Shown here in pieces: positions 4,684 to 33,442 of a stretch of DNA of 64,000 nt; position 1 is the first letter of the stretch, and each line of letters starts with the position of its first letter. Origin of the DNA: Secundilactobacillus angelensis (lineage in GTDB: Bacteria; Bacillota; Bacilli; Lactobacillales; Lactobacillaceae); the NCBI RefSeq assembly GCF_012641075.1, contig NZ_JAAXLJ010000003.1, positions 124,001 to 188,000 on the forward strand, written 5' to 3'. A model generated the notes under the pieces. It had not been told where the DNA came from, made no database searches, and was given only the letters and a program-made list of their open reading frames with translations. The position numbers were made by a program, and so were the translations under genes.

Positions 4684-5466
4684 TTAATTAAAATAGTTTG
4701 AAACTGGTGCAAAAGTGCGCCGATGGATCTTTGATGGTCCTAAATCGGCTAGTCCCTGCAAGTGGGCTTTAGTTCCATAACCAGCGTTGTGAGCAAATTC
4801 ATAACCAGAATACAAAACGTCATAGCTTTGCATGAGATGATCACGAAAAACTTTTGCGACGATGCTGGCAGCCCCAATAGAAACACTTTTGGCATCGCCA
4901 TGAATTAATTTTAATTGGGGAATGTCAGTATCAATTTGCATGGCATCGATGAGTAATTGGTCAGGCTGTGGCTGTAAGTGATTGACCGCAGCTAACATGG
5001 CTACACGAGTGGCTTGATAGATATTCAACTGATCAATTTGCTGGGCTGAAGCCGTACCGATTCCCACTGCGATTGCTTGATTCAAGATTTGCGGATAGAG
5101 TTCCTCTCGCAGGTGATCCGACAGTTGTTTGGAATCATTGACTTCAATCACATCAAAATCGTCAGGTAAAATGATTGCACAACTGACTACCGGACCTGCT
5201 AACGGACCACGACCCACTTCATCGATGCCAGCAATCAGTTGATGCCCCTGCTGACGAAATTGGCGTTCATAAAAAAAACGCTGCTCGAAAGCACGCTTTT
5301 CCTCTACTAGCTTGGTGATTCGATGCTGAGCCGAAACCATCAGTTTTTGAACGCCAGAACGTGGATCATCTGCATATTGGGCAAAAAGCGGATCATGGGA
5401 ATCGGTCACTTGCTCAAATAACGGCGTCAGATCACGAATGGAGACTGTTTTAGCCACGAACCTCAC
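4684..5466 (-). CDS. rnhB: Ribonuclease HII
   Basis: Cleaves the RNA strand of RNA-DNA hybrids and removes misincorporated ribonucleotides. The active-site region GIDEVGRGPLAGPVV supplies the Asp-Glu pair, with further catalytic Asp residues in LLIDAM and in the HGDAKSVSIGAASIVAKVFRD stretch. 260 residues, including an N-terminal extension of about 75 residues seen in Bacillus and lactobacillus RNase HII. It begins with GTG inside the end of rbgA (17-base overlap), so the two are translated as one unit. The exact start is uncertain because the upstream ribosome site is weak. Confidence 0.96.
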   Translation of the reverse strand: MRFVAKTVSIRDLTPLFEQVTDSHDPLFAQYADDPRSGVQKLMVSAQHRITKLVEEKRAFEQRFFYERQFRQQGHQLIAGIDEVGRGPLAGPVVSCAIILPDDFDVIEVNDSKQLSDHLREELYPQILNQAIAVGIGTASAQQIDQLNIYQATRVAMLAAVNHLQPQPDQLLIDAMQIDTDIPQLKLIHGDAKSVSIGAASIVAKVFRDHLMQSYDVLYSGYEFAHNAGYGTKAHLQGLADLGPSKIHRRTFAPVSNYFN

Positions 5467-6304
5467 CGTCCGTTCGGTTTAACGTGTAGCGACCTAATTT
5501 GCTTTTACGGATATCTAGAATAAGGCGGTCCGAAGCCCGTTCATAATCATCTTTCATCCCAAACTGTTTGGTTAATTTGAGCAGCAAATCAACGTCAGAA
5601 AGGTCGAAATCATTTTCCGTTAACTTATAGCGTTCTTGTAATGCTTTGGGATAATACTGCCGGAAAAACTTCAACGCGTAAAGGGCCACATCGTCGCTGG
5701 CAAAACGTTGATCCTTAATTGCACCAGTTAATGCCAATGCCTGACCGGTTTCCTCATCATCAAACTTAGGCCATAAAATCCCAGGAGTGTCCAATAATTG
5801 CAGCTTAGAAGACGAACGGAGCCACTGTTGTCCCTTGGTCACACCAGGACGGTCGCCAACTTGAGCGGCCCGTTTATTGACCAAACGGTTTAACAATGTG
5901 GATTTACCAACGTTTGGAATGCCAACCGTAATCGCACGAATTGGCCGTTCTTTCAACCCCTTTTGCTGCTCGTTATCGAGTTTGTCTGCCAGAATTGACT
6001 GTGAAATACGTGTAACAGTTTTAGTTGTAATGTTAGCCTTAGAATCCACCGCGATTGCTGGTAAACCTTGCCTCTTAAATTGCTTGATCCAATTTGCAGT
6101 CTGTTCTGGATCCGCCAAGTCACTTTTCGTCATAATGACCAAGTGCGGCTTATCCTTAATGATCCGTTCAATTTCGGGATTGCGGGATGATTGGGGAATC
6201 CGGGCGTCCACTAGTTCGAACACGATATCCACCACGTGTAAATTTTCTTCCAACTGGCGGATGGCCTTCGCCATGTGGCCAGGAAACCATTGAATAGTTG
6301 CCAT
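5450..6304 (-). CDS. rbgA: Ribosome biogenesis GTPase RbgA (YlqF)
   Basis: GTPase required for a late step of 50S subunit assembly. The circularly permuted GTPase order is visible: G4 (TKSDLAD) precedes G1 (GIPNVGKST), G2 and G3 (DTPGILWP). The N-terminal IQWFPGHMAKA is the family signature. The C-terminal helical domain (about residues 180-284) contacts 23S rRNA in studied homologues. 284 residues, normal. First gene of the rbgA-rnhB pair, with GGGAGC about 12 bases before the ATG. Confidence 0.95.
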   Translation of the reverse strand: MATIQWFPGHMAKAIRQLEENLHVVDIVFELVDARIPQSSRNPEIERIIKDKPHLVIMTKSDLADPEQTANWIKQFKRQGLPAIAVDSKANITTKTVTRISQSILADKLDNEQQKGLKERPIRAITVGIPNVGKSTLLNRLVNKRAAQVGDRPGVTKGQQWLRSSSKLQLLDTPGILWPKFDDEETGQALALTGAIKDQRFASDDVALYALKFFRQYYPKALQERYKLTENDFDLSDVDLLLKLTKQFGMKDDYERASDRLILDIRKSKLGRYTLNRTDGEVRG

Positions 6305-6472
6305 ATATTTTGATTGCTCCCTTTTTATTTAAAAATTAATCTGACTTTTGATGCAGTCACGAATAATATCGTGTCATTCTTTTGTAAAATGACATCCTTA
6401 TTTGGTTGATAGAAGAGTATCTGTCCTTGTATTTTACCATCTTTAGCCAATCTAAAACAGCTACACTCAGAC

Positions 6473-6506
6473 AAAAAGCAATCTTCCTTTCTGAAGATTG
6501 CTTTTG
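6473..6506 (-). terminator. Rho-independent terminator after the ABC exporter operon
   Basis: Inverted repeat AAAAGCAATCTTC / GAAGATTGCTTTT with a short loop, just beyond the permease stop. Read on the minus strand the hairpin is followed by a T-run. The rest of the 6305-6523 gap shows no gene; it should also hold the rbgA promoter, which I could not place. Confidence 0.8.
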
Positions 6507-6523
6507 TAAATTTAGAAAAATAC

Positions 6524-9240
6524 CTAATCTACTGACTTTAATGCTTCAAGCATATCCACGCTTTGAATCTTGCGGTTCATCGTATACATGACCATTAACG
6601 AGAAAATAATGGTCAACCCGACCGAGATTACGACATTGATCCATGAGAGACCCGGTGCAACCATCGCTGTCGCTGGTGGCAATAGATCCATAATATAGGC
6701 GTGGAACAAGTAGCCGGCGCCAATGCCAACCAAGATTCCAGCACCAGTTAAGATGTTAGTCTCGCGATAAATGTACATGAGCACCTCTCGCGGATAAAAG
6801 CCCAGCACCTTCAAAGTGGATAGTTCCCGCATACGCTCGGAAACGTTGATATTCGTCAGTGTGTAAAGAACAACCAGTGAGAGCAGCGACGCACTGACCA
6901 CCAGTACAAGGATCAGGTTGTTCAAATTGCCCAAAATATTGGTGATGGTCTTCTTGGTCTCTCTTGATTGCACAGTCTCCACTGCCGCTTCCTGACGATT
7001 GAAATGGGAAGCAAAGGCATTCACCGACTTACTGGTGCTGTGCTTCAAGGTAACCAGGTAAGCATTAGGCGTCGCTGCCTTACCGTAAACCTTCTGATAG
7101 TATGCCCGGTTCATGTAAACGTAGTGGCCGGCATACATCGTGGTAATTGCCGCTACCCGAGCCTTGTGTGCCGTTCCATCAGTATCTTTAAGGTTGATAG
7201 TATCGCCGACGCTTGCACCCTGCAGCTTAGCCAGTTTCTGGGAAACCACTGCCCCACTGTCGGTCAACGAAAGTTTCTTGCTAGACTTATAATCACGGAG
7301 CTTGATGTACTGATCAAGCTGATTACGAGACTTAGGCACCATCAGTGCAATGTTTTCTCGCGTGTCAGAACCGTTGGTCGTTGCGTAGACATTCGCAAAA
7401 TATGCTGCAGTGGTGCGCTTGACCTGGTTTGAATTCTTCACTGCCCCTTGTGCTTTACGAACTGCAGTGGTGCTAGCATTAGGGTTATACACAGTCACAA
7501 GATCATACTGGCTAATGTCGCCAAACTGCCGGGCAACAATGGTGTTCAACGAGTCGCGAATTCCAAATCCGGTAATCATCAATGCTGTGGCACCAGCGAC
7601 CCCGATGATTGTCATAAACATACGACCCTTATAACGGAACAAGTTTCGGGCAGTCACTTTATAGGAAAAACTCATTTTCCGCCACAACGGTTTAATTCGT
7701 TCCAACAGGATCCGCGACCCATTTACCGGTGGCTTCGGTAGCATTAACTCAGCTGGAATGATCTTCAAAGAAGATCGAGCCGCCAACCACGATGCCAGTA
7801 CCGTCGATGCTAATGCCAATATTAAGCCAACCACCACGTAGCCAATGTGTGGCGCTAATAGTAGAACCTTGAAGTTGAAGTTGGCTGTATACGCCCGAAA
7901 AATGATGCGAGGCAAGACAACTAATCCCAGTGCACTCCCAAGGACCGTCCCCGTTACAGCGGTAGTAATACTATAAACTAGAAACTCGCGCATAACCTCA
8001 CCCTTAGTGTAACCGAGTGCCCGCATCGTTCCCATCTCAATCCGCTTTTCATCGACCATACGCTGCATTGTCGTAAAGCTGACCATGATTGCAATCAGGA
8101 AGAAGAATGCTGGAAATGAGCGGCCTAACACGTCAATCCGTTGTGCATCTTCGCCATAGTTATTGTAGCCGTCATTATAATTGTTTCGGCTCTCAACAGT
8201 AAAGGTAATATCGCTAAGCTGATTGCGCGTCGCCTTGGCTTTCGCGAGATCAGACTTCGCAGTATCCAAAGACTCTCGCTTAAAATTCAGGGCGCTTGAC
8301 TGCTTTTTAAGCATCTGTAGCTTATTTTCTACTTGAGCAATGGCGGTCGCGTTGTTCGCCGACTTGGCCGCTGCCAGCTGCGTCGTGAGCTGCTGTTGCG
8401 CTGTGGTTAATTGCGTGCTAGCAGTCTTGATTGCCGCTTTACTATTTTGAATCTGGCTTTCCCCAGAACTTATCTTGTCATTCAGCTCCGTGCGTAGTTC
8501 AGCCACGCGTGTCTTGTTGCGTGCATTTAGCTTCTTCTGGAGCTTATCAGTTAACGTCTTGGCATGGTGCTCGTAGCTGGTTGAGTACGCCTGTCCATTA
8601 GGATGAGTAAAGGCCAGCCGGGCAACGTTCGGCTGGCTACTGGAAAACGCTGACTTGGTGACATAGCCGAAACCATAAAGCGTCCCGCTGCCGAGGCTAG
8701 TGGAACCGAGGCTATCCTTCTTCAGAAATTCGGTCGAGGTCGCAAACCCAACGATCTTGTAAGCCTGCCTCTTTAAGCCGGTAGTACTTCCAGTCTTTCC
8801 AGAAGCAAAAGTGACCTGCTGCCCAAGTTTATACTTTCCAGATAGCTTATCATTCAAGACGACTTCATTTGTGGCATGAGCTTTGCGCCCTTTCGTGATT
8901 GTGAGCTTTGATAGCTTATTCGGGTTACTCTGAATTCTCATCGCATGTTGGCTGTCCTTAATCACAACATCAGTTGTATGACCGAACTCCGCAGTCTTGA
9001 TTCCAGACAACTGCCTCACCGTTTCACGGTCTTTAGCATTAAGTGAAACAGTCGACGTCACTTTCACATCAGCAAGCCTCTCAGCATTATAAGTCTTCTG
9101 CGCGGTACGGCGCATGTTTGGTCCGGTAACATTTAGTCCAATCAAAACAAACACGCCAAGCATCAAAAGAGCAGACACCGAAATGAACGCGCAATCGATA
9201 GCTTAAACTCACGAGCAATATTTTTATTTAACATCTTCAT
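6524..9240 (-). pseudogene. ABC transporter permease (FtsX/MacB type), reading frame broken near the start
   Basis: Large permease of an export-type ABC system with two FtsX-like domains: a membrane segment at the N-terminus, a long extracytoplasmic part with a coiled coil (about residues 220-310 of the open frame), three membrane segments around FPAFFFLIAIMVSFTTMQRM, then a second extracellular domain and a final membrane block ending at EALKSVD. Translation should begin at ATG 9240 (or 9246), four bases after the ATPase stop, reading MKMLNKNIAREFKLSIAR, but that frame hits TGA after FRCLLF. The next frame continues FISVSALLMLGVFVL and stays open to 6524 (884 codons from a GTG at 9178). Adding one base at about 9185-9189 joins them into a family-like N-terminus and a protein of about 905 residues. 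Either a single-base error or a real frameshift mutation. Confidence 0.85.
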
Positions 9241-9249
9241 CGCCATCAC

Positions 9250-9954
9250 CTACCATTCAATCTCGGCTACAGGAGTCGGCTTCTTATTACGTTTGTCTGC
9301 CTTAACTTGACCATCAGCAATTTCAATCACATGATCCGCCATTGGTCGAATCATCAAATTATGCGTCACAATGATCACATTTTTGCCGGTCTCGCGAACA
9401 AAGTCCTGAAACAGTTGCAGGATTTTCTTACCGGTTTTGTAATCAAGAGCACCAGTGGGTTCGTCAGCCAGCAACAGATCTGGGTTCTTCGCCATAGCGC
9501 GCGCAATGGCGACACGTTGCTGTTCACCACCAGAAAGCTGAGCCGGAAAATTCTCAATACGATCCTTCAGTCCCACCTGCGTCAACGCCTGAACGGCATC
9601 GATTGCATCTGGCGCTATCTCTGCCGCCAGTTCAACGTTTTCAACAGTCGTGAGGTTCTGAACCAGGTTGTAAAACTGAAAAACAAACCCGACTTGTTTA
9701 CGGCGGTATGTGTTGAGACCGCGCTTATCTAACTCGCCCAGTTCTACACCGTTAACGTTCACTGAGCCTGAAGTCAGATGATCCATGCCACCAAGCACGT
9801 TAAGCAGGGTCGATTTACCAGCTCCCGATGCACCTAAGATAATCGTTAGCTCGCCAGGTTCGATCTCAAAGCTGATGTTCTTGTTCGCGGTCACCGCATG
9901 ACTTCCAGTGCCGTATCTCTTGGTCTCATTTTTGACAGAAATAAAATTCGTCAT
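9250..9954 (-). CDS. ABC transporter ATP-binding protein (MacB/LolD type)
   Basis: ATPase partner of the permease at 6524-9240. Walker [10 protein letters not shown], the Q-loop FVFQFYN, signature LSGGEQQR, Walker [13 protein letters not shown] and the H-loop THN are all intact. 234 residues, standard. The gene ends four bases before the permease start, so the two are translationally coupled. It is divergent from the TetR gene at 10085, which probably represses it. Substrate unknown; in lactobacilli such pairs are often linked to export of drugs, peptides or envelope-active compounds, which is a family inference only. Confidence 0.93.
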
Positions 9955-9980
9955 TGCATGTCTCCTCCAATTAGTAAATA

Positions 9981-10069
9981 ATGAACACTGTGTTTATCAA
10001 ACTACGGGACTATTAAACCATTTCATCCATCATTTTCTATGGTCAAAAATTAAAAAAGTGTTCATCAAA
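9981..10069. promoter_or_regulatory. Candidate TetR operator region between ABC ATPase and regulator
   Basis: AACACTGTGTT at 9984-9994 is an odd-centred perfect palindrome, extended imperfectly on both sides. Its right half GTGTTTATCAAA (9990-10001) recurs as GTGTTCATCAAA at 10058-10069, 11 of 12 bases the same, immediately before the regulator's ribosome site. Repeated half-sites in a divergent TetR intergenic region fit autoregulation and repression of the exporter. Confidence 0.5.
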
Positions 10070-10084
10070 TATCTGGAGGCACTC

Positions 10085-10693
10085 ATGACAACTCATAAAC
10101 AACGGAACGCACAAACTGAGTCGGCCATCGTTGACGCCTTGGTTAAAATCGGTCACGATAAACCGCTGAGCCAAATTACGGTCACTGATCTCATCAAAAC
10201 AACCGGAATCAGCCGCGGCACCTTTTACCTGCACTATCTCGACAAAGAAGACCTGATTGAACAACTTAAGAATCAATTCATGTCCAAGTTTAAAAAAACT
10301 CTCGCAAATGAAATGGGAAATACCATGAATCTGCAGGAACTTGCCAACGGCGACCCCTACCCAGTCTTGATTGACGTGCTCTCCCCAGTCGCCAAAAATA
10401 GATCGTTGCTTGCCTTCTTATTTGGCGCCAATGGTGACGCACCATTCTACAGAACAATCGTCAACGAGCTGCAAATCGCGATTTTGCACAAATTACGAAC
10501 TATTAAGGGAACCGTCACCTTTTGCCGAGAAGTTCCCCAGACGTATGCCATCAACCTCGTCACGAATACGATTGTGAGCACCATCATGGTCTGGCTGACA
10601 GACAATGACAAGCTAACTAGTAATGAACTGGCTCATGTCATCATGCGAGAACTCTATCTTTCGCCTTACCAAATACTGGAAATTGATTCATAG
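10085..10693 (+). CDS. TetR family transcriptional regulator
   Basis: One-component repressor, 202 residues. The N-terminal helix-turn-helix is clear (ITVTDLIKTTGISRGTFYLHY, about residues 32-52), followed by an all-helical ligand domain with no recognised relative. The ATG at 10085 was chosen because CTGGAGGC lies just upstream; the open frame extends further 5' but that extension reads through the intergenic operator region. Divergent from the ABC exporter, which is its probable target. Confidence 0.9.
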   Translation: MTTHKQRNAQTESAIVDALVKIGHDKPLSQITVTDLIKTTGISRGTFYLHYLDKEDLIEQLKNQFMSKFKKTLANEMGNTMNLQELANGDPYPVLIDVLSPVAKNRSLLAFLFGANGDAPFYRTIVNELQIAILHKLRTIKGTVTFCREVPQTYAINLVTNTIVSTIMVWLTDNDKLTSNELAHVIMRELYLSPYQILEIDS

Positions 10694-10733
10694 TTGAATG
10701 ATTCGTGGAAGGAACCTAATACTCACAAACAGC

Positions 10734-10772
10734 AAAAAGCCTAGCTTGGCAAAGCGCCAATGCTAGACTTTT
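10734..10772. terminator. Bidirectional terminator between tetR and the large adhesin gene
   Basis: Stem with AAAAGCCTAGCTTGGC opposite GCCAATGCTAGACTTTT (minor mismatches), A-rich on the left and T-rich on the right, placed between two converging genes. Confidence 0.75.
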
Positions 10773-10795
10773 AGTCTGTTATTCACTGTGGAAAA

Positions 10796-13700
10796 TTAGT
10801 TCTTTTTTCGACGATCAGCTAAGCCAAACAGTCCGAGTAGTGAAACCAACATGCCAAGCAGACCACCCAGTTTAACGGTGTCATTTTGAGCATCATTTGT
10901 TTGAGGTAAAACAGCTTGTGAATTGCCTTTTGCGTTGGTATTCATACTTCGAGTGGCACCATGCTGCATGGTAACCACTGCGGTCCCTCTCTGTTGATCA
11001 GCTTGACCACTTTGAGCAGATGATTGATGACCTGAAGTCTTGTCACCTTGAACATCACTACTCTCGTCGCCTTGACCATGAGTGTTTGACCCGTTATCAG
11101 GCGCAACATTGTTGACGGTATCATTATTGCTATCATCGGTAACCGTTCCGGTTGGGTTGTCAGTGGTTGAACCGCCACCAGTAGGATTCGAATCAGAACC
11201 ACCATTACCGCCGTTATTGTTGCCGCCATTTCCACCGCCGCCAGTAGGCGAGTCTGCAGCGTAGACATAGGTTACAACAACGTCGCCATCTCCAACTGTA
11301 CCGGTTGGATCACCTTCAGTCTTCACCAAATGATACCCAGGGATGATCTTAGCACTGGTTGTGTAACTATCATTAACGTTGAGCTGGTCTTGAACCGTTG
11401 AATCAGCGATTGGATTGCCATTTTGATCAACGTAGTTCGTTGTGACTGTGTAATTGTCGTTTACGATGTTTACCGTGCCTGGGATAACTTTAATATCGTA
11501 GTTAGGATTGTCACCCAAGTTTGCGTTGATCGCATATGAGCCAATTGCAACACCATCGCCGCTCAGAACTGACTCAAAGTTAATGGCAACTCCAAGTGCT
11601 GGCTTGCCAACAATTTCAGGGGTAATCTGGCTCGCATCAAATGACTGACCGGTGTACTTCTGATTAATTGTCGGTTCAATAATCGTGATCGGTGCTGGCG
11701 AGATGGTGAGGAAGCCCTCGGTCACACCAGTAATTTGATAGTTGGGATTAGCCGCTTGAAGATCGGCAAGGCCTTTTGCACTCAATTTAACCGCATATTG
11801 GCCGACGTTTTGACTCGTAATCCCAGACAAATCGAAGTCAGCAGCTGTCCATGCTGAGGCCGTCAAGCCGGATCCCGGAACGTCGGCGAAAATAACGTCA
11901 TACGTCTTAGGATCAGTCGTCGCATCACCATCATAGAACTTGTTAACGTTTTGAATCGTTATATCTGAGGATGAAATCTGTCGCTGAAGGATGTTTAATG
12001 ATCCCGTCTGGAACACTGCAGCACTTAAATCGTAGTTCGGATTAGCCGCTTTTAATGCTGCAATTCCTTGCTCACTCAATTTAACGGGATATGAACCAAC
12101 ATCTTGACTAGTAATGCCAGATAAGTCGAAATCTTCAGCGGTCCAAGTCGGTGCGGTTAATCCTGCCGGCAAAGTGACTGTATAAGTCGTTGGATCGGTA
12201 GAGGCATCACCATCATAAGTTTTCGTCTTACCGGCAAGCGTAATCGGTCCGGCTGGTTGGGCTGGCGTAATAGTCAATTTACCGGAGACCACCTTAATAT
12301 CATAGTTAGGATTATCTGCCGTATTAGCAGTCACAGCAATGGTGTAAGTTCCAGCGTTAATATCATCTGACAAATCCGATAAAGTATAGTTTACTGCCGC
12401 ACCATTGGCCGGTTTGCCAGTCATCGTGACGTCTTCCACACCAGTGTATCCTAAGCCATCGTAAGTTTTTGCTTGGTCATTTGCCTTAATGGTCACTTCA
12501 GCCTGATTAATGGTAAATGTGCCAGCCGTGACATTGTCCGAAGTAAACGTGTAATTGGGATTAACAGCCTCAATTGCTGCGATACCAGCCGCACTCAACG
12601 TAACCGTATAGTTGCCAACGTTTGGACTGTTAATACCGGATAAGTCGAAATCATCAGCGGTCCAAGTTGGCGCCGTTAAATCATCCCCAAGCGTAACTGT
12701 ATACTTCGATGTATCGCTTGAAGTTGTGCCATCATACGTCTTACTGCTATCGCCCACAGTAATGCTGCCAGTATAGGCAGCTGGCGTAATCGTAAACGTG
12801 CCAGATTTAACCGAAGTGGCATCAAACAAGTAATCGGGATTTGCAGCAGCCAATTTTGATAAACCGGTGGCATTCAAACTGACTGGGTAAATCCCAGCCT
12901 CAGCACTATCAATCCCAGATAAGTCAAAATCAGAATTATCCCAGGTTGGATTGATTAATCCATTGATACCAGTCAACTTAAATTGAGTGGCATCCACGAC
13001 GGTTGTGCCATCATAAACTTTTGAGCCGGCCTGATTCTGAACACCATCATTGAATGAGAGCGAATTGGCGTTCACGACCTGTTGATACTTAACCGTATAG
13101 GTATTACCCTTCGCGGAATACGTCCCATCAGCGTTGGCCTGACTGGCTTTAAACGTAGTCGTCACTTTTGGAAATGTGTTAATTGCATTCACGCTGTCCT
13201 GCTCAAGTTGATAGGTAATACCATTGTGAACAATGGTTGCGGGTACTAAGTCAGCCGTTGCGTAAGAACTATCTGGGGTCCCAGTGGTTGTCACAGGTGT
13301 GGCAATCGAATTGCCGTTTGGATCAACAAAATTGTACGTATCGGTGACAGTGGCTTTGACAATATCATAGTGCCAAATAAATCCAGGATAACTTGAATTT
13401 AATACCACTGCATCATCAATGCCTAACGCGGTTGCAACTTGGGGAATATTCTGATAACCAAAACCATAGCCAGCTATCGTATATGCCCCTTGAGTATCTG
13501 AATAATTATCTGTCAAGTACATGACCGCACTGTCTTTGGCCCCGATATAGGGTCCAATCCAACCAGAGGTCACGCTGGAATTTGGATCAGGGACAATTGA
13601 AACTGTTGCGGCTGAACTAGCATCAGTAAACGGTGCAGGTAGCGTGACAGAATCAAAATGAATCTTGAACTTCTGCCGCCCTTCATAACCCCCTGCGATG

Positions 13701-15652
13701 GGTGTAACGGTTAGTCCTGAAGCATTGATGTTGTTTGTGGAAATCCAGTTGTTAATATCCTGAGTAACTGTGCTTTGAGGATCAGTTGAAACAACGGCAT
13801 TCCCACTTTCATCAACGTCCCCAGCAACAAATCCTGCAGGAATCACCAAAAATTCAGTTAGGTTGGTAATGGTCTGCAGACCTCCGTTAAACCGAACAAT
13901 CGGAATTGATAACGGCAAGGACGATCCTTGTGCAATAATATAATTATTGTAGTTGGTTGTTTGACTCGGATTACCATCAGCGTTCAGCCCAACGTGAGGT
14001 ACCCCTGAGGTTTGAGTACTAATGTCAACATAGTAATTTGCTTGATAAAGCGAAGCATTGGAGGTTGAATCGGAAACATTGATTGTCCCCTTGACCATGT
14101 TACTATCATTCAAGTTTAGGGTTGGGTTACTGGAATTTAACTGATTAATTTCGGCAGAGGTCAGATTAACTGCATATGAGCCAGCAGTTGCTGTGTTAAC
14201 CTGCGAAGTATCAAAGTTAGCAATTGGAACCGTGTACACAACACTCCCATCTTCAGTGTTAGTATAGAACACCGTCCAGTCACTAGGAACGGTGGCATTA
14301 GTTCCATTTGCGACAGTCACGTATAACGATTGTGGCAAACTTTGGTTAACTTTAATGGTTGTCCCACCTACTGCCAGTGCAACGTTATTTTGTATGACAT
14401 ACGAACCTGGAGCGACACTGTTTGCTTTAATATCAAAATTCTTGTTGAGGTCCTGTAACTTTTGCAGCCCCTGAGCAGACAACGTAATCGCATAATTGCC
14501 AACGTTTTGGCTGGTAATAGCTGCATCGATGTCACCGGAATCAACGGAAACGGTATATTGTCCTGCGACGATTGCACCTGTTGCGTCGGTTACCGGTGTC
14601 CAGTCCGTGGAACCCGTCAAATAACTTGGGAGCGTCACCGTATATGATGTCGGATTGGTTGTGGCGTCATTATCCTGCACTTTACTGCCACCAGACACGG
14701 TAATAGCATTAGCTGGAATTGGGGCTTTAGTAATGGTGATGTGGCCAGCAGTCACATCATTCGCCGTTAAATTGGCATTCTTGTTAATACTATTCAACTT
14801 TGCCAACCCAGCAGCGGATAACGTCACTGAATAAGTCCCAGCGTCTTGTTGAACATCACTAGTGTCGAAATCACCAGAAGACAGTAAGACTGTATATTGA
14901 CCAGCATTAGTTTGTGCGTACCAACCCGTGGGAGCGGTAAGGCCATCGCCTAACGCAACGTCAAGTGATGTTGGTGTCGCGGTGCTATCGTCATAATACT
15001 TGGTTGTATCACCAATCACGACTTTAGTGGCCAAGATTGCTGGTAAACTTTTTACTTGAGGCGTCTTTAAAGCAGTATTAACAGCTGTTTTTGTCTGATT
15101 GGTGTTGCTCATTTCACCAGTGGCAGTGTTAGAATTAGCTAATTTATCTGAGTTGGATGTCGCATCAACCTTAGCTTCAGCTTCAGAACTTGAATCCACA
15201 GTGTTACTTTTATCACTAGTCGAATCCTGAGTGGTATTTTGATCTGATGAAGCTAAAGCCTTAGCGGAATCATCCTTGACTGGTGAAAAATCCGAGCTAG
15301 TAGTATTTAATTGATCTGTTGTCGAATCTGATTCTTGAGCATCAGCGGTGTTCGAAGTTACAGCGCTTGATGTCTCTGAGGTATCTTGACTCGAAGCATC
15401 ATTAGTTGTCGCGTTGACGATACTAAGCGTCTTTGACTGATTGTTAGTTGCCCCTGCTACATCACTGTTAGCAGCGGTAGAATCCTCTGTCGTAGTTGCT
15501 TGAGCAGAAGTTGCGGTACCACCAAGCACCATTAAAGTGAAGGCAGTGGCTGTCACCCAAAATTTACCTGACTTATAAAGCTTATAATGTAAACCTGATT
15601 TACCAATAGTATGATAATTATTTCTCGATACTTTTCAATAGTCTTTTTGCAT
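10796..15652 (-). pseudogene. Large LPXTG surface adhesin with MBG and MucBP domains, TGA at codon 6
   Basis: Cell-wall-anchored adhesin of about 1618 codons. The proper start is ATG 15652 with GGAGGGG seven bases upstream, but the frame reads MQKDY then TGA (15637-15635) before continuing KVSRNNYHTIGKSGLHYKLY and KSGKFWVTATAF, the KxYKSGKxW secretion signal and hydrophobic core. No usable start codon follows until GTG 15556, which would delete the signal's basic part. Beyond it: a Ser/Thr/Asp-rich stretch (to about residue 170 from 15556), three MBG-like repeats, a unique region (about 500-740), then MBG repeats with TYDG and DFDLSGI motifs (about 830-1365), a MucBP repeat (to about 1430), a Gly/Asn-rich linker, and LPQTN near 1550 with membrane segment and basic tail. 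Nonsense mutation, phase state or sequence error. Confidence 0.85.
11460..13060 (-). repeat. Tandem MBG repeats inside the adhesin gene
   Basis: At least five consecutive modules of about 75-100 codons, each with a K(T/F)YDG-type opening, an Asp-rich DFDLSGI centre, a (A/S)AxGLxxLxAxNPNY helix-like segment and a closing LTI(T/S)PA strand. The DNA shows recurring near-identical words such as GATAAGTCGAAATC at about 12121 and 12640. Such repeats can expand or contract by recombination. Confidence 0.75.
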
Positions 15653-15840
15653 GCCGTACCCCTCCAAATATCCGTATGACGCCAATAAAAATCATTGAAC
15701 TGCTTACGAAATCAAGTATAACCCCGATTAAACGTATTTAAAATAATTTTAAGTGAGATATTCGTTATTTCTCATGAAAGCCTTTTCAATAATTAATAAT
15801 TCAATAGTTTCTTGTTGTTCTCAAGTAAATTGAAATCAAA

Positions 15841-15875
15841 AAAAGCAAGCATTCATTAAGCGAATGCTTGCTTTT
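15841..15875 (-). terminator. Terminator downstream of the 69-residue ORF
   Basis: Perfect inverted repeat AAAAGCAAGCATTC / GAATGCTTGCTTTT with a seven-base loop. T-run on either strand; placed just after the ORF at 15894-16103. The AT-rich stretch 15653-15840 before it holds the adhesin's upstream region; I see no gene in it. Confidence 0.85.
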
Positions 15876-15893
15876 GGAATAAATGAATGAAAA

Positions 15894-16103
15894 TTAATGG
15901 ATGAACTTATATTTAATAACCAACTTTGGCCGTTTCGGCACGTTCATTTTACTGGTATATAGTCGCAGGTAGCTGGTCGCTTCACTGTCGCCATAATCGG
16001 ACCGCTTGATTAACTCATCAAGAGCAACCTTTTTCAGCATCGCCCACGCCCAGCCACGACCAAATAAGTGTTGATAAAGTTCTTTGTTTGTTTCATTATC
16101 CAT
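15894..16103 (-). CDS. Small protein of unknown function, 69 residues
   Basis: I do not recognise this protein. It is soluble-looking, has no signal peptide or membrane helix, has a Trp-rich motif near residue 17 (GRGWAWAMLKK) and a basic C-terminus (VPKRPKLVIKYKF). It lies between yozE and the adhesin on the same strand, with its own terminator, but no strong ribosome site was seen before ATG 16103. Codon usage looks ordinary. A real short gene is likely but not certain. Confidence 0.55.
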   Translation of the reverse strand: MDNETNKELYQHLFGRGWAWAMLKKVALDELIKRSDYGDSEATSYLRLYTSKMNVPKRPKLVIKYKFIH

Positions 16104-16189
16104 TGCTTATACGTGCGCCTCTGTTCTCATCACCTGTAGCAAGTATGATTTCTGACTACAAGCTAAATAGTAACGATGTAAATCTGAAA

Positions 16190-16408
16190 TTAATCCTGCT
16201 CCAAATACATTTGCCAAGCCTGATCAAAAACCGTCATGGACGGTAAATAGCTGGCATTTTCCTCCAAATATTTGGATAGGACATCAAATTGGGTCTCCTG
16301 TTTTGGGAAGGCCTGATCATAAAACGCGTTATTGGCGAACTCAGCAACCGGTTCATAATCTTCTGGATTACGCTGGGTCATTAAAAATTGATAAAAACTC
16401 TGTCTCAC
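16190..16408 (-). CDS. yozE: YozE family protein
   Basis: Small cytoplasmic protein of 72 residues matching the YozE/UPF0346 family in length and in the N-terminal [11 protein letters not shown], the [14 protein letters not shown] and the [19 protein letters not shown] segments; Bacillus YozE folds as a small SAM-like helical domain. Function unknown. It follows ypmS by 14 bases, so it is probably the last gene of a ypmR-ypmS-yozE operon, as in many lactobacilli. Confidence 0.85.
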
Positions 16409-16422
16409 GGATGATCACTCCT

Positions 16423-17049
16423 CTATGATTTCGGCTTGGGGATCAACACTTTAAACTCGAACTGACCGGCGCCATTCATGTCGATTTTTTCAGCACGATA
16501 CTGCACGCCATTAGTTCTAAATCGCTGTAAGTTCATGGTAATCGTTTTTTGGTGGACGTTGAGTTCAACCCACTTCGGTAAATTATACTGCGCTTTAATA
16601 TAACTTAAAACCGCACTGACGGGAACATTTAATTGTCCGACAGCTAACTTTTTGGCTTTTAACTGAACATTGCCATTCGTTAATACTTTCGGCGTCAACG
16701 ACAAGCCAAAGTTCACTGGCAGTCCTAGCAACTGCGTTTGCCCCGTTAGCACAGCATCATCGTGAACTTCAAACTGATAGTTAACCTTTTGTTTAGACTG
16801 GTTCTGATACTGATTCAAATAATAGGCAGCCATTGCGTTAAGCTGCTTTTTGTTCAACCTGACGTTAAAGTCCGCTGCTGAAACCGGCGTGCTAGTTTGC
16901 GTCACATTAGTTTTCGAACCCGAGAAAAGTTTAATCCCCACGGTCCCTGCACCAACCAATAGGATTGCCACTAAGGCAATAAACGCCCACTTCCACGGGT
17001 TAATGCTCTTTTTGGCTGTCCCTTTTTGTTGCCGACTTTCTGTGTTCAA
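16423..17049 (-). CDS. ypmS: YpmS family membrane-anchored protein (DUF2140)
   Basis: 208 residues with a single N-terminal membrane segment (about residues 23-45, WAFIALVAILLVGAGTVGI) after a short basic cytoplasmic head, then an extracytoplasmic domain typical of DUF2140 (FNVRLNKKQLNAMAAYYLNQ, GLSLTPKVLTNGNVQLKAKKL). Function unknown in all species I know of. It follows the SGNH hydrolase by 22 bases and precedes yozE, matching the Bacillus ypmR-ypmS order. Confidence 0.85.
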   Translation of the reverse strand: MNTESRQQKGTAKKSINPWKWAFIALVAILLVGAGTVGIKLFSGSKTNVTQTSTPVSAADFNVRLNKKQLNAMAAYYLNQYQNQSKQKVNYQFEVHDDAVLTGQTQLLGLPVNFGLSLTPKVLTNGNVQLKAKKLAVGQLNVPVSAVLSYIKAQYNLPKWVELNVHQKTITMNLQRFRTNGVQYRAEKIDMNGAGQFEFKVLIPKPKS

Positions 17050-31513: not shown

Positions 31514-33442
31514 TTACTTTGATTCTGGTTTGCGTCGTTTAGCCAACCCTAAAACACTCAAAATACTAAGCATAATAACGCCCATCAATGCGCCAGTTTT
31601 CGAGTTTACTTCACTGGTTTGTGGCAATTTCTGAGTACCTGTTCGGCTTGTCGAATCTGCAAGTACGACTTTACCGGATTTTGAATTGCTGTTTCCAGTA
31701 GTAGCCCCTTCAATTCTAGTTGAGGCTACACCGCTTCCTTGACGAGAAGTGTTAGTTGTCCCATCGTTCTGAGTTGATTGCTGACTGTCAGGGGTCTGAC
31801 TCTGATTTACTGTATCCCCATTACCACTTGTGCTGATACTATCGTTTGTAATAGAAATAGTGTCAGTGCGATCTGAATTTTGACCTGCGCCAGTATCGGC
31901 AGTCGTGTCAGTGTCAGTGTTACTGTTCTCAGTATCACTAACCGTACCACCATTATCTTGACCACCATTAGGACCAACTACTGCGTTCGGCTGATAGTAA
32001 ATTGTAGCTGTGGAATCTGCTAACTCGCTGGCTGCAATAGGCGCCGGGTAAGTTGCTGGTGCACCCGAACTAGTCGCCGTATAACCGTCAATTTGTGGTG
32101 CAGAAACAAAGGAATAAGCCCCTTGCGCGGTGGCGTAACTATCGCCAGCCACACGATCCGTTTTGACGACCCAATTAATCGTTTGAGTAGTCGCCTGTTT
32201 CAACGCAGTAGTTGTGCCTTCGATGTAGTAATTAACGATTCGATTGGTTGTCTCAGTAGTCATCTTAACTTGATGGGTCAGATAAACAATGACACTGGGA
32301 TTTTCACCAGCAACAAAATTGTAGGTTCCCTGGGTTGGCGTCCCGGACTTTAAATCATAGTTTGCTGGTGCGGACACTGTATAATCTGTTGACTCCCCCT
32401 CCATACCACTCAAAGGAATCGTTTGGACTAACTTGTTATTTTCATCTTCATCCAAATATTGGATAGTGGTAGCCGTATTTTTAACAAGCTTAAATTCCAG
32501 TGTTGAAATGTTAGCAGCAGTACCCTGCTGTAAATTAAAATTATAAATATCGGCTTCAAAATCATTTTCGGGTGATGCGGTATCCAGACTACCTGCATTA
32601 GCAATCGTCAACGGAACTGACAGCGTATAACTGGCGTTACCCACAAATGAACTTCCCTGAACGTAGATTCCCAATAGCTGACTTGGTTTGAAATCAGGGT
32701 AATTGACTAGAAGATCATTATATGAAAGATATTCACCCGGTTTGACAGAAAAGGTGTAATTCAAACCCGGTTGACTGCCCATCAAATCTTGCAAGTTAAA
32801 ATTATCGTTAACTAACGCCGAAGTCGATTCATTAAAAAACTTAGGAAACAAGAAATCTGGTTGAATGCGACTAGGTTCATTACTGGTGTTAGTAACATTA
32901 TAATCAATATTGAAATTGCTAGCATTCTTGACATCTAAGCCAGCTTGACTGGTAACGACAGCATCAGAATTAGCACCGGCAACCAGTGTATTATCGCCTT
33001 TGTTCCAAGCTGCACCTGGCAAACTAACTTGCGCGGTACTAGTCCACTGAGTGGCACTTGTAGCAGCAACTGATCCCTGGTCGGCTGCCTTTGGCTGAGA
33101 AGTCACTACTGTAGCAGCAACGGGTTCATCGGCTTGTTTTTCAGTTTGATTGCTCTCAGAAGCTGCCTGCTCTGAACCATCTGTGGCCACATCAGTTGCT
33201 TGACTGCTGTTATCAGTGTTTCCTGAGTTATCAATATTGTTAGCTGTCACGGAATTACTTGCCTGAGTGTTGTCAGCAAGATTTGACTTCACAGCAGTAG
33301 CAACCGGTACTGTGTCATCAGCAGCGGCACTCACTTGAGACCCCATCAGACCGCCAATCCCAATAGTTACCATTGTAATAGCGGCAAAAATCCATGACCG
33401 GCCACTCTTATACATTTTATAATGCTGTTTTGTTTCATTCAT
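31514..33442 (-). CDS. LPXTG-anchored surface protein with MucBP domains
   Basis: Cell-wall-anchored protein of 642 residues, intact. N-terminal HYKMYKSGRSWIFAA is the KxYKSGKxW secretion signal, with cleavage probably after VSAAA (about residue 40). Then a Ser/Thr/Asn-rich stretch (to about 130), a unique beta-rich domain (about 130-330), a MucBP repeat (TTIQYLDEDENNKLVQTI..., about 335-400), a second mucin-binding-like repeat (IVNYYIEGTTTALKQ..., about 405-500), a Ser/Thr/Asn stalk and LPQTS at about 606 with membrane segment and basic tail. GAGGGAG precedes the ATG. Likely adhesin. Unlike the large adhesin at 10796-15652, its start is undamaged. Confidence 0.9.
   Translation of the reverse strand: MNETKQHYKMYKSGRSWIFAAITMVTIGIGGLMGSQVSAAADDTVPVATAVKSNLADNTQASNSVTANNIDNSGNTDNSSQATDVATDGSEQAASESNQTEKQADEPVAATVVTSQPKAADQGSVAATSATQWTSTAQVSLPGAAWNKGDNTLVAGANSDAVVTSQAGLDVKNASNFNIDYNVTNTSNEPSRIQPDFLFPKFFNESTSALVNDNFNLQDLMGSQPGLNYTFSVKPGEYLSYNDLLVNYPDFKPSQLLGIYVQGSSFVGNASYTLSVPLTIANAGSLDTASPENDFEADIYNFNLQQGTAANISTLEFKLVKNTATTIQYLDEDENNKLVQTIPLSGMEGESTDYTVSAPANYDLKSGTPTQGTYNFVAGENPSVIVYLTHQVKMTTETTNRIVNYYIEGTTTALKQATTQTINWVVKTDRVAGDSYATAQGAYSFVSAPQIDGYTATSSGAPATYPAPIAASELADSTATIYYQPNAVVGPNGGQDNGGTVSDTENSNTDTDTTADTGAGQNSDRTDTISITNDSISTSGNGDTVNQSQTPDSQQSTQNDGTTNTSRQGSGVASTRIEGATTGNSNSKSGKVVLADSTSRTGTQKLPQTSEVNSKTGALMGVIMLSILSVLGLAKRRKPESK

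Follow-up and report, generated by a model that had tools for sequence, protein, structure and literature searches.

A stop at codon 6 of a large KxYKxGKxW/LPXTG adhesin gene in Secundilactobacillus angelensis, probably a recent null allele

Introduction

Surface-protein pseudogenes with premature stops form a known general class, and disrupted surface-protein genes are common in lactobacilli generally. The Lactobacillaceae carry LPXTG adhesins with a KxYKxGKxW secretion signal (PF19258/TIGR03715), as well as LPXTG mucus adhesins of the Lar_0958 family (NF040719). PMC7858073 reports a premature stop that arose in lba0132 of L. acidophilus during gut passage, and PMC6717177 a KxYKxGKxW/MucBP/lectin surface protein that is absent from the L. 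casei-group genomes compared. A sortase-dependent surface structure switched on and off by slippage is represented by the pili of Bifidobacterium breve, which depend on an intragenic G-tract according to PMC9187656. Among the titles listed by full-text literature searches, none dealt with early stops in KxYKxGKxW adhesins of the genus Secundilactobacillus, and a search combining Secundilactobacillus and LPXTG returned no paper.

The gene described below lies on the minus strand of a 64,000-nucleotide stretch of S. angelensis DNA (the window; contig NZ_JAAXLJ010000003.1, positions 124,001 to 188,000), whose numbering is used throughout. It resembles the KxYKxGKxW LPXTG adhesins of the Lactobacillaceae in reaching the cut-offs of PF19258, PF17883, PF06458, TIGR03715 and TIGR01167, and differs from them by a stop at codon 6. 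The resemblance to the Lar_0958 family is a partial match over the MBG repeats (residues 876-1325), and with 221.3 bits against a cut-off of 1200 the protein is not a member. With the pseudogenes of surface proteins it shares the long intact remainder, the redundancy within the genome and the single lesion; there is no essential difference, although the lesion is unusually early. The first-pass annotation of the window had considered an on/off surface trait, an idea akin to the B. breve pili, yet no comparable tract or repeat was found at this adhesin.

An intact adhesin frame behind an early stop

The features of the gene and its start region are as follows.

15841 to 15875, minus strand: terminator-like hairpin that separates the adhesin gene from those upstream (one found; mean of 0.2 in shuffled sequences)
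15659 to 15665, minus strand: strong ribosome binding site GGAGGGG, with 8 nt between GGAGG and the ATG (sequence)
15650 to 15652, minus strand: ATG start codon of the adhesin frame, aligned with the starts of four same-genus genes with intact 5′ ends
15635 to 15637, minus strand: in-frame TGA, codon 6, where all six aligned same-genus genes have arginine
15605 to 15607, minus strand: ATT, codon 16, the one non-standard codon before the signal core at which a restart after the TGA is conceivable, without a visible ribosome site
15557 to 15583, minus strand: KLYKSGKFW core of the KxYKxGKxW secretion signal, intact (codons 24-32)
11261 to 11449, minus strand: MucBP domain, residues 1402-1464 (profile match)
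10895 to 10909, minus strand: LPQTN sortase motif preceding a hydrophobic stretch and a basic tail (sequence and anchor model)
10796 to 15652, minus strand: LPXTG adhesin gene broken at codon 6, with eight MBG stretches, one MucBP domain and a C-terminal anchor (sequence and profile matches)

The strong ribosome site, the ATG at 15652 and the TGA at 15637-15635 had been described correctly in the first-pass annotation, and so had the intact signal and some 1600 stop-free codons behind them. From 15652 to 10796 the frame contains just two stops, codons 6 and 1619, which leaves 1612 sense codons behind the TGA; the frame is thus not open from its start codon through the signal. The signal is in frame with the body of the protein and is recognised both by PF19258 (residues 21-57, E 2.5e-10) and by TIGR03715 (30.2 bits, cut-off 18). 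The eight MBG stretches (PF17883) give a whole-protein E of 5.1e-100, and the LPXTG-anchor model TIGR01167 identifies a sortase anchor at 18.4 bits (cut-off 15.9). Judged by its sequence, an open frame of 1612 codons that combines a signal, MBG stretches, a MucBP domain and an anchor is a gene and not a chance frame. The main consequence of the stop, as things stand, concerns annotation: a mechanical ORF finder reports in place of this gene a 1586-residue protein starting at the GTG at 15556. Such a protein has no signal core and is unlikely to be produced.

Only distant relatives of the adhesin were found. The best-scoring one in the genus is 40% identical over residues 10-1124, and in the matches listed single repeat segments reach at most 56%. 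The 14 other genomes of the genus yielded no close copy. A search of genome_contigs, where records very near to the window's genome are possibly absent, gave three loci with a best segment of 42% identity; plasmids gave only three distant records, and viral_contigs no match.

The stop lies within a coding module

Whether the TGA interrupts coding sequence depends on what precedes it in related genes. The first 60 residues of the adhesin were searched against 397 genomes of the family, and besides the gene itself four same-genus genes aligned from residue 1 (G000:C71, G003:C71, G007:C7 and G002:C16). Together with two more genes from G002, six same-genus genes share with the window an N-terminal module, KD[YF]xKxSxNN, and all six code for arginine at the position of the stop. 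Two of the six are themselves broken, at other codons; the remaining four are intact at the 5′ end, and their aligned start is ATG in two and TTG in two. As a DNA pattern with up to two mismatches the motif matched 24 times in 19 of the 397 genomes, including five matches without mismatch, all in this genus; the two-mismatch matches outside the genus are mostly uninformative, because a reversed control pattern also matched a few times. Because the module common to the six genes spans the stop position, the stop is a lesion within coding sequence. The same observation rules out a leader peptide, MQKDY*, encoded by a separate upstream frame.

The TGA is an ordinary stop here, as it terminates 5 of the 43 ORFs counted in the window (of 44 with 200 residues or more), which also rules out its being read as a sense codon. 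A different start for the adhesin was rejected as well. No ATG, GTG or TTG was found in frame from the TGA to the end of the KLYKSGKFW core, and across codons 7-40 the possible restarts are the ATT at codon 16 and the GTG at codon 33 (15556), the latter downstream of the entire motif. Reinitiation, which had been proposed as one way around the stop, would thus have no standard codon to use before the end of the core.

Low-level synthesis of the adhesin, by readthrough of the TGA or by restart at the ATT at 15607, is accordingly an improbable account for which nothing speaks positively. The very early position of the stop would suit it, a start at codon 16 would retain the full signal core, and the body is intact, as is also expected under selection for low-level expression; this last point counts against a null allele. 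Against it stand the usual behaviour of TGA in this window and the ATT itself, which has no visible ribosome site before it. ATT starts are rare.

Locus and genome setting

The genome is a 2.6-Mb draft in 139 contigs with a completeness of 99.98. The adhesin gene is accompanied by genes for an FtsX/ABC transporter and a TetR-type regulator. The locus is flanked on one side by the gene of a ribosome-binding GTPase, which we take to be rbgA, and on the other by two small genes, one presumably yozE, and then a DUF2140 gene, presumably ypmS. In a tblastn comparison with seven other genomes of the genus, in one of which (G006) the locus is split over two contigs and the interval may be incomplete, the flanking genes were matched, and adhesin, FtsX, ABC and TetR genes had no match at the locus. 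The rbgA-ypmS interval (the 5450-17049 locus of the window) could be measured in 14 of 15 genomes, where a single contig carries both flanks; its length lies between about 0.3 and 12.7 kb, with 10.1 kb in the window's genome, which marks it as a variable site. The hairpin at 15841-15875 separates the adhesin gene from the upstream genes, so that it probably forms its own transcription unit; six promoter-like sites between 15600 and 16200, against 2.4 expected, say little.

The secretion signal itself is redundant in this genome. Its profile has 20 matches there, and 17 of the genome's own signals entered the survey described below. A second KxYKxGKxW protein, of 642 residues, is encoded within the window at 31514-33442; it is anchored and has an intact start.

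An accessory Sec system of SecA2 and Asp was not detected. The window's genome has one SecA-type match at 920.1 bits (cut-off 930), which is read as the ordinary SecA, its score being close to that of most other genomes, and its best Asp1 match reaches 30.9 bits against a cut-off of 136.1. Among the 15 genomes of the genus only G007 has both SecA2 and Asp1 above cut-off (G007:C10); in G013 (G013:C56) Asp1 passes its cut-off, and the SecA2-type match is split and stays below. The signal profile is nevertheless matched in all 15 genomes, though SecA2 and Asp1 are scarce.

Disrupted signal-bearing genes in the genus

To estimate how often such lesions occur, genes with the signal were surveyed across 13 of the genus's genomes by means of a profile made from 16 signals. 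Lower completeness and higher contamination kept G009 and G013 out of the survey, and the first half of one frameshifted gene was dropped from the count. Among the matches listed, 135 distinct signals were obtained; an anchor closes 89 of their genes, the edge of a contig or locus cuts off 29, and 17 end otherwise. Fourteen of the 135 are disrupted, so about a tenth of such genes are broken and the window gene is one of many.

Ten of these disruptions, all among the 17 genes that end otherwise, lie in the body and were judged by eye from three-frame translations (L205, L206, L264, L266, L267, L274, L278, L281, L288 and L291). The frame of L274 is already broken some 45 codons past a degenerate signal, and L267 represents a rearrangement. 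At this last locus (G008:C56:7200-14376) the frame with the adhesin signal ends after 90 codons, and a different frame leads on into what is presumably a xylose isomerase. Natural-looking ends were seen in L192, the first gene of L203 and L283, the last by its C-terminus only. L173 and the second gene of L203, which end near a contig edge, and L204 and L209, which contain unknown bases, were left uncounted.

The other four lesions are at the 5′ end, namely the nonsense codon of the window and those of G002:C20, G002:C13 and G006:C3, and these are the only survey genes without a standard start before the signal core. The gene of G002:C20 (L155, near 6848) belongs to the same N-terminal subgroup as the window adhesin. 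It has no in-frame start and a TAG just upstream; from the signal core onwards the frame stays open for 1146 codons, where the contig ends. In G002:C13 (L154/L186, contig positions 27173-27360) an exact 20-nt tandem duplication, with ATGTATAAGGCCAAGAAATT present twice, lies inside the signal, and at least 1407 codons, as far as the contig extends, are frameshifted by it. The duplication also places an ATG at the core in the downstream frame, so a restart may be possible in that gene. In G006:C3 (L218, G006:C3:253500-269500, near 254222) two stops separated by two codons directly precede the RMYKAGRMW core. The 446-codon frame that holds this core is otherwise open and carries an LPQTS anchor, and the relatives in G014 and G012 are intact at the place of the stops.

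About 2-3% of the codons examined belong to the 5′ segment. A binomial test of 4 of 14 gives P = 1.3e-4 to 7.3e-4, as a post hoc figure that includes the prompting window and draws on few events, draft assemblies and body lesions judged by eye; with the window removed, 3 of 13 gives P = 1.9e-3 to 6.8e-3. As a small control, rbgA is free of stops in 15 of 15 genomes and ypmS carries one stop in 2 of 15 (G002 and G013), so that stops turn up in conserved genes of these drafts as well. There may be a modest excess of 5′ lesions in signal-bearing genes. The stop in the DUF2140 gene is an internal TAA in both genomes (G002:C1:164136-164741 and G013:C24:15370-15986).

Outside the genus, five flagged stops (L292-L296) were inspected and not counted; others, for example in G097 and G347, lay partly outside this inspection. 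Four of the five, L293, L294, L295 and L296, were rejected as early stops, as these genes start after the flagged stop and the alignment had overrun the true start; the frame of L296 is short, at 139 codons. In L292 (G058:C1:1427500-1431000), from another genus, a stop directly precedes the core, with no standard start between the two. Six loci with short frames (L298-L303) were also kept out of the count, and L297 repeats a place already included.

Origin of the stop

The first-pass annotation had left the choice between a recent event and an error, on the one hand, and an on/off trait on the other. The first part is borne out by the absence of a second lesion in the body and the sense codon in six relatives, and the second is not. 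No tandem repeat was found between 9500 and 17000 of the window, and the longest homopolymer near the adhesin start is five bases, so a slippage switch is unsupported. The first stops of the other two frames fall at codons 33 and 11 and close both, so that a single slip cannot restore the adhesin. There is, in short, no sign of a reversible switch at the adhesin site.

A phase-variable switch acting at the 5′ end by slippage or recombination is therefore highly improbable. It would gain from the survey, where four of the 14 disrupted genes carry the lesion at the 5′ end and one of these lesions is an exact tandem duplication of the reversible kind. It is opposed at the window adhesin by the lack of repeats just described. 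Nor did a search reveal a further genomic copy of the 5′ region as a partner for recombination; the similarity goes no further than 36 bases at the conserved signal core. Moreover, a substitution is not a fast reversible switch.

A sequencing or assembly error, with a true sense codon at codon 6 and an intact gene, is unlikely, though it is the main alternative. The assembly is a draft in 139 contigs, the adhesin belongs to a large family of related genes within the genome, and the 1612 codons behind the stop are undamaged, all of which would suit an error. The site is well inside a contig of 196,754 bases, in locally unique DNA: when the 428-base 5′ region was compared with 21 genomes, it matched, besides itself, nothing more than fragments of 29-36 bases, of which its own genome has two. 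With 14 of 135 genes of the class disrupted, a real mutation would also have a higher prior than a substitution error in the consensus.

The adhesin gene is thus most plausibly a recent, ordinary null allele of a dispensable, accessory adhesin, and the strain would then make a five-residue peptide and no adhesin. In this reading, codon 6 of a 1618-codon KxYKxGKxW/LPXTG adhesin would have been turned into a stop by a point mutation, and the base at the stop, taken from one draft assembly, would be real. The mutation would be recent, given that no second lesion has accumulated in 1612 codons. The loss of the adhesin is probably tolerated, because the genome holds many other genes with the same signal and the adhesin is an accessory insertion in a variable locus. 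A reversible mechanism would be neither needed nor visible at this stop.

Implications for surface variation

The four 5′ lesions allow a broader and rather doubtful suggestion. The 5′ ends of adhesin genes might be a favoured site of silencing in the genus, reached by nonsense mutation, loss of the start or small tandem duplication and leaving the bodies intact. Populations might in this way keep a reservoir of silent but readable adhesins, some of which, such as the gene with the 20-nt duplication, could easily revert. An excess of 5′ lesions that persisted across many strains would suggest that selection for silencing costly surface proteins is a routine source of surface variation in these lactobacilli.
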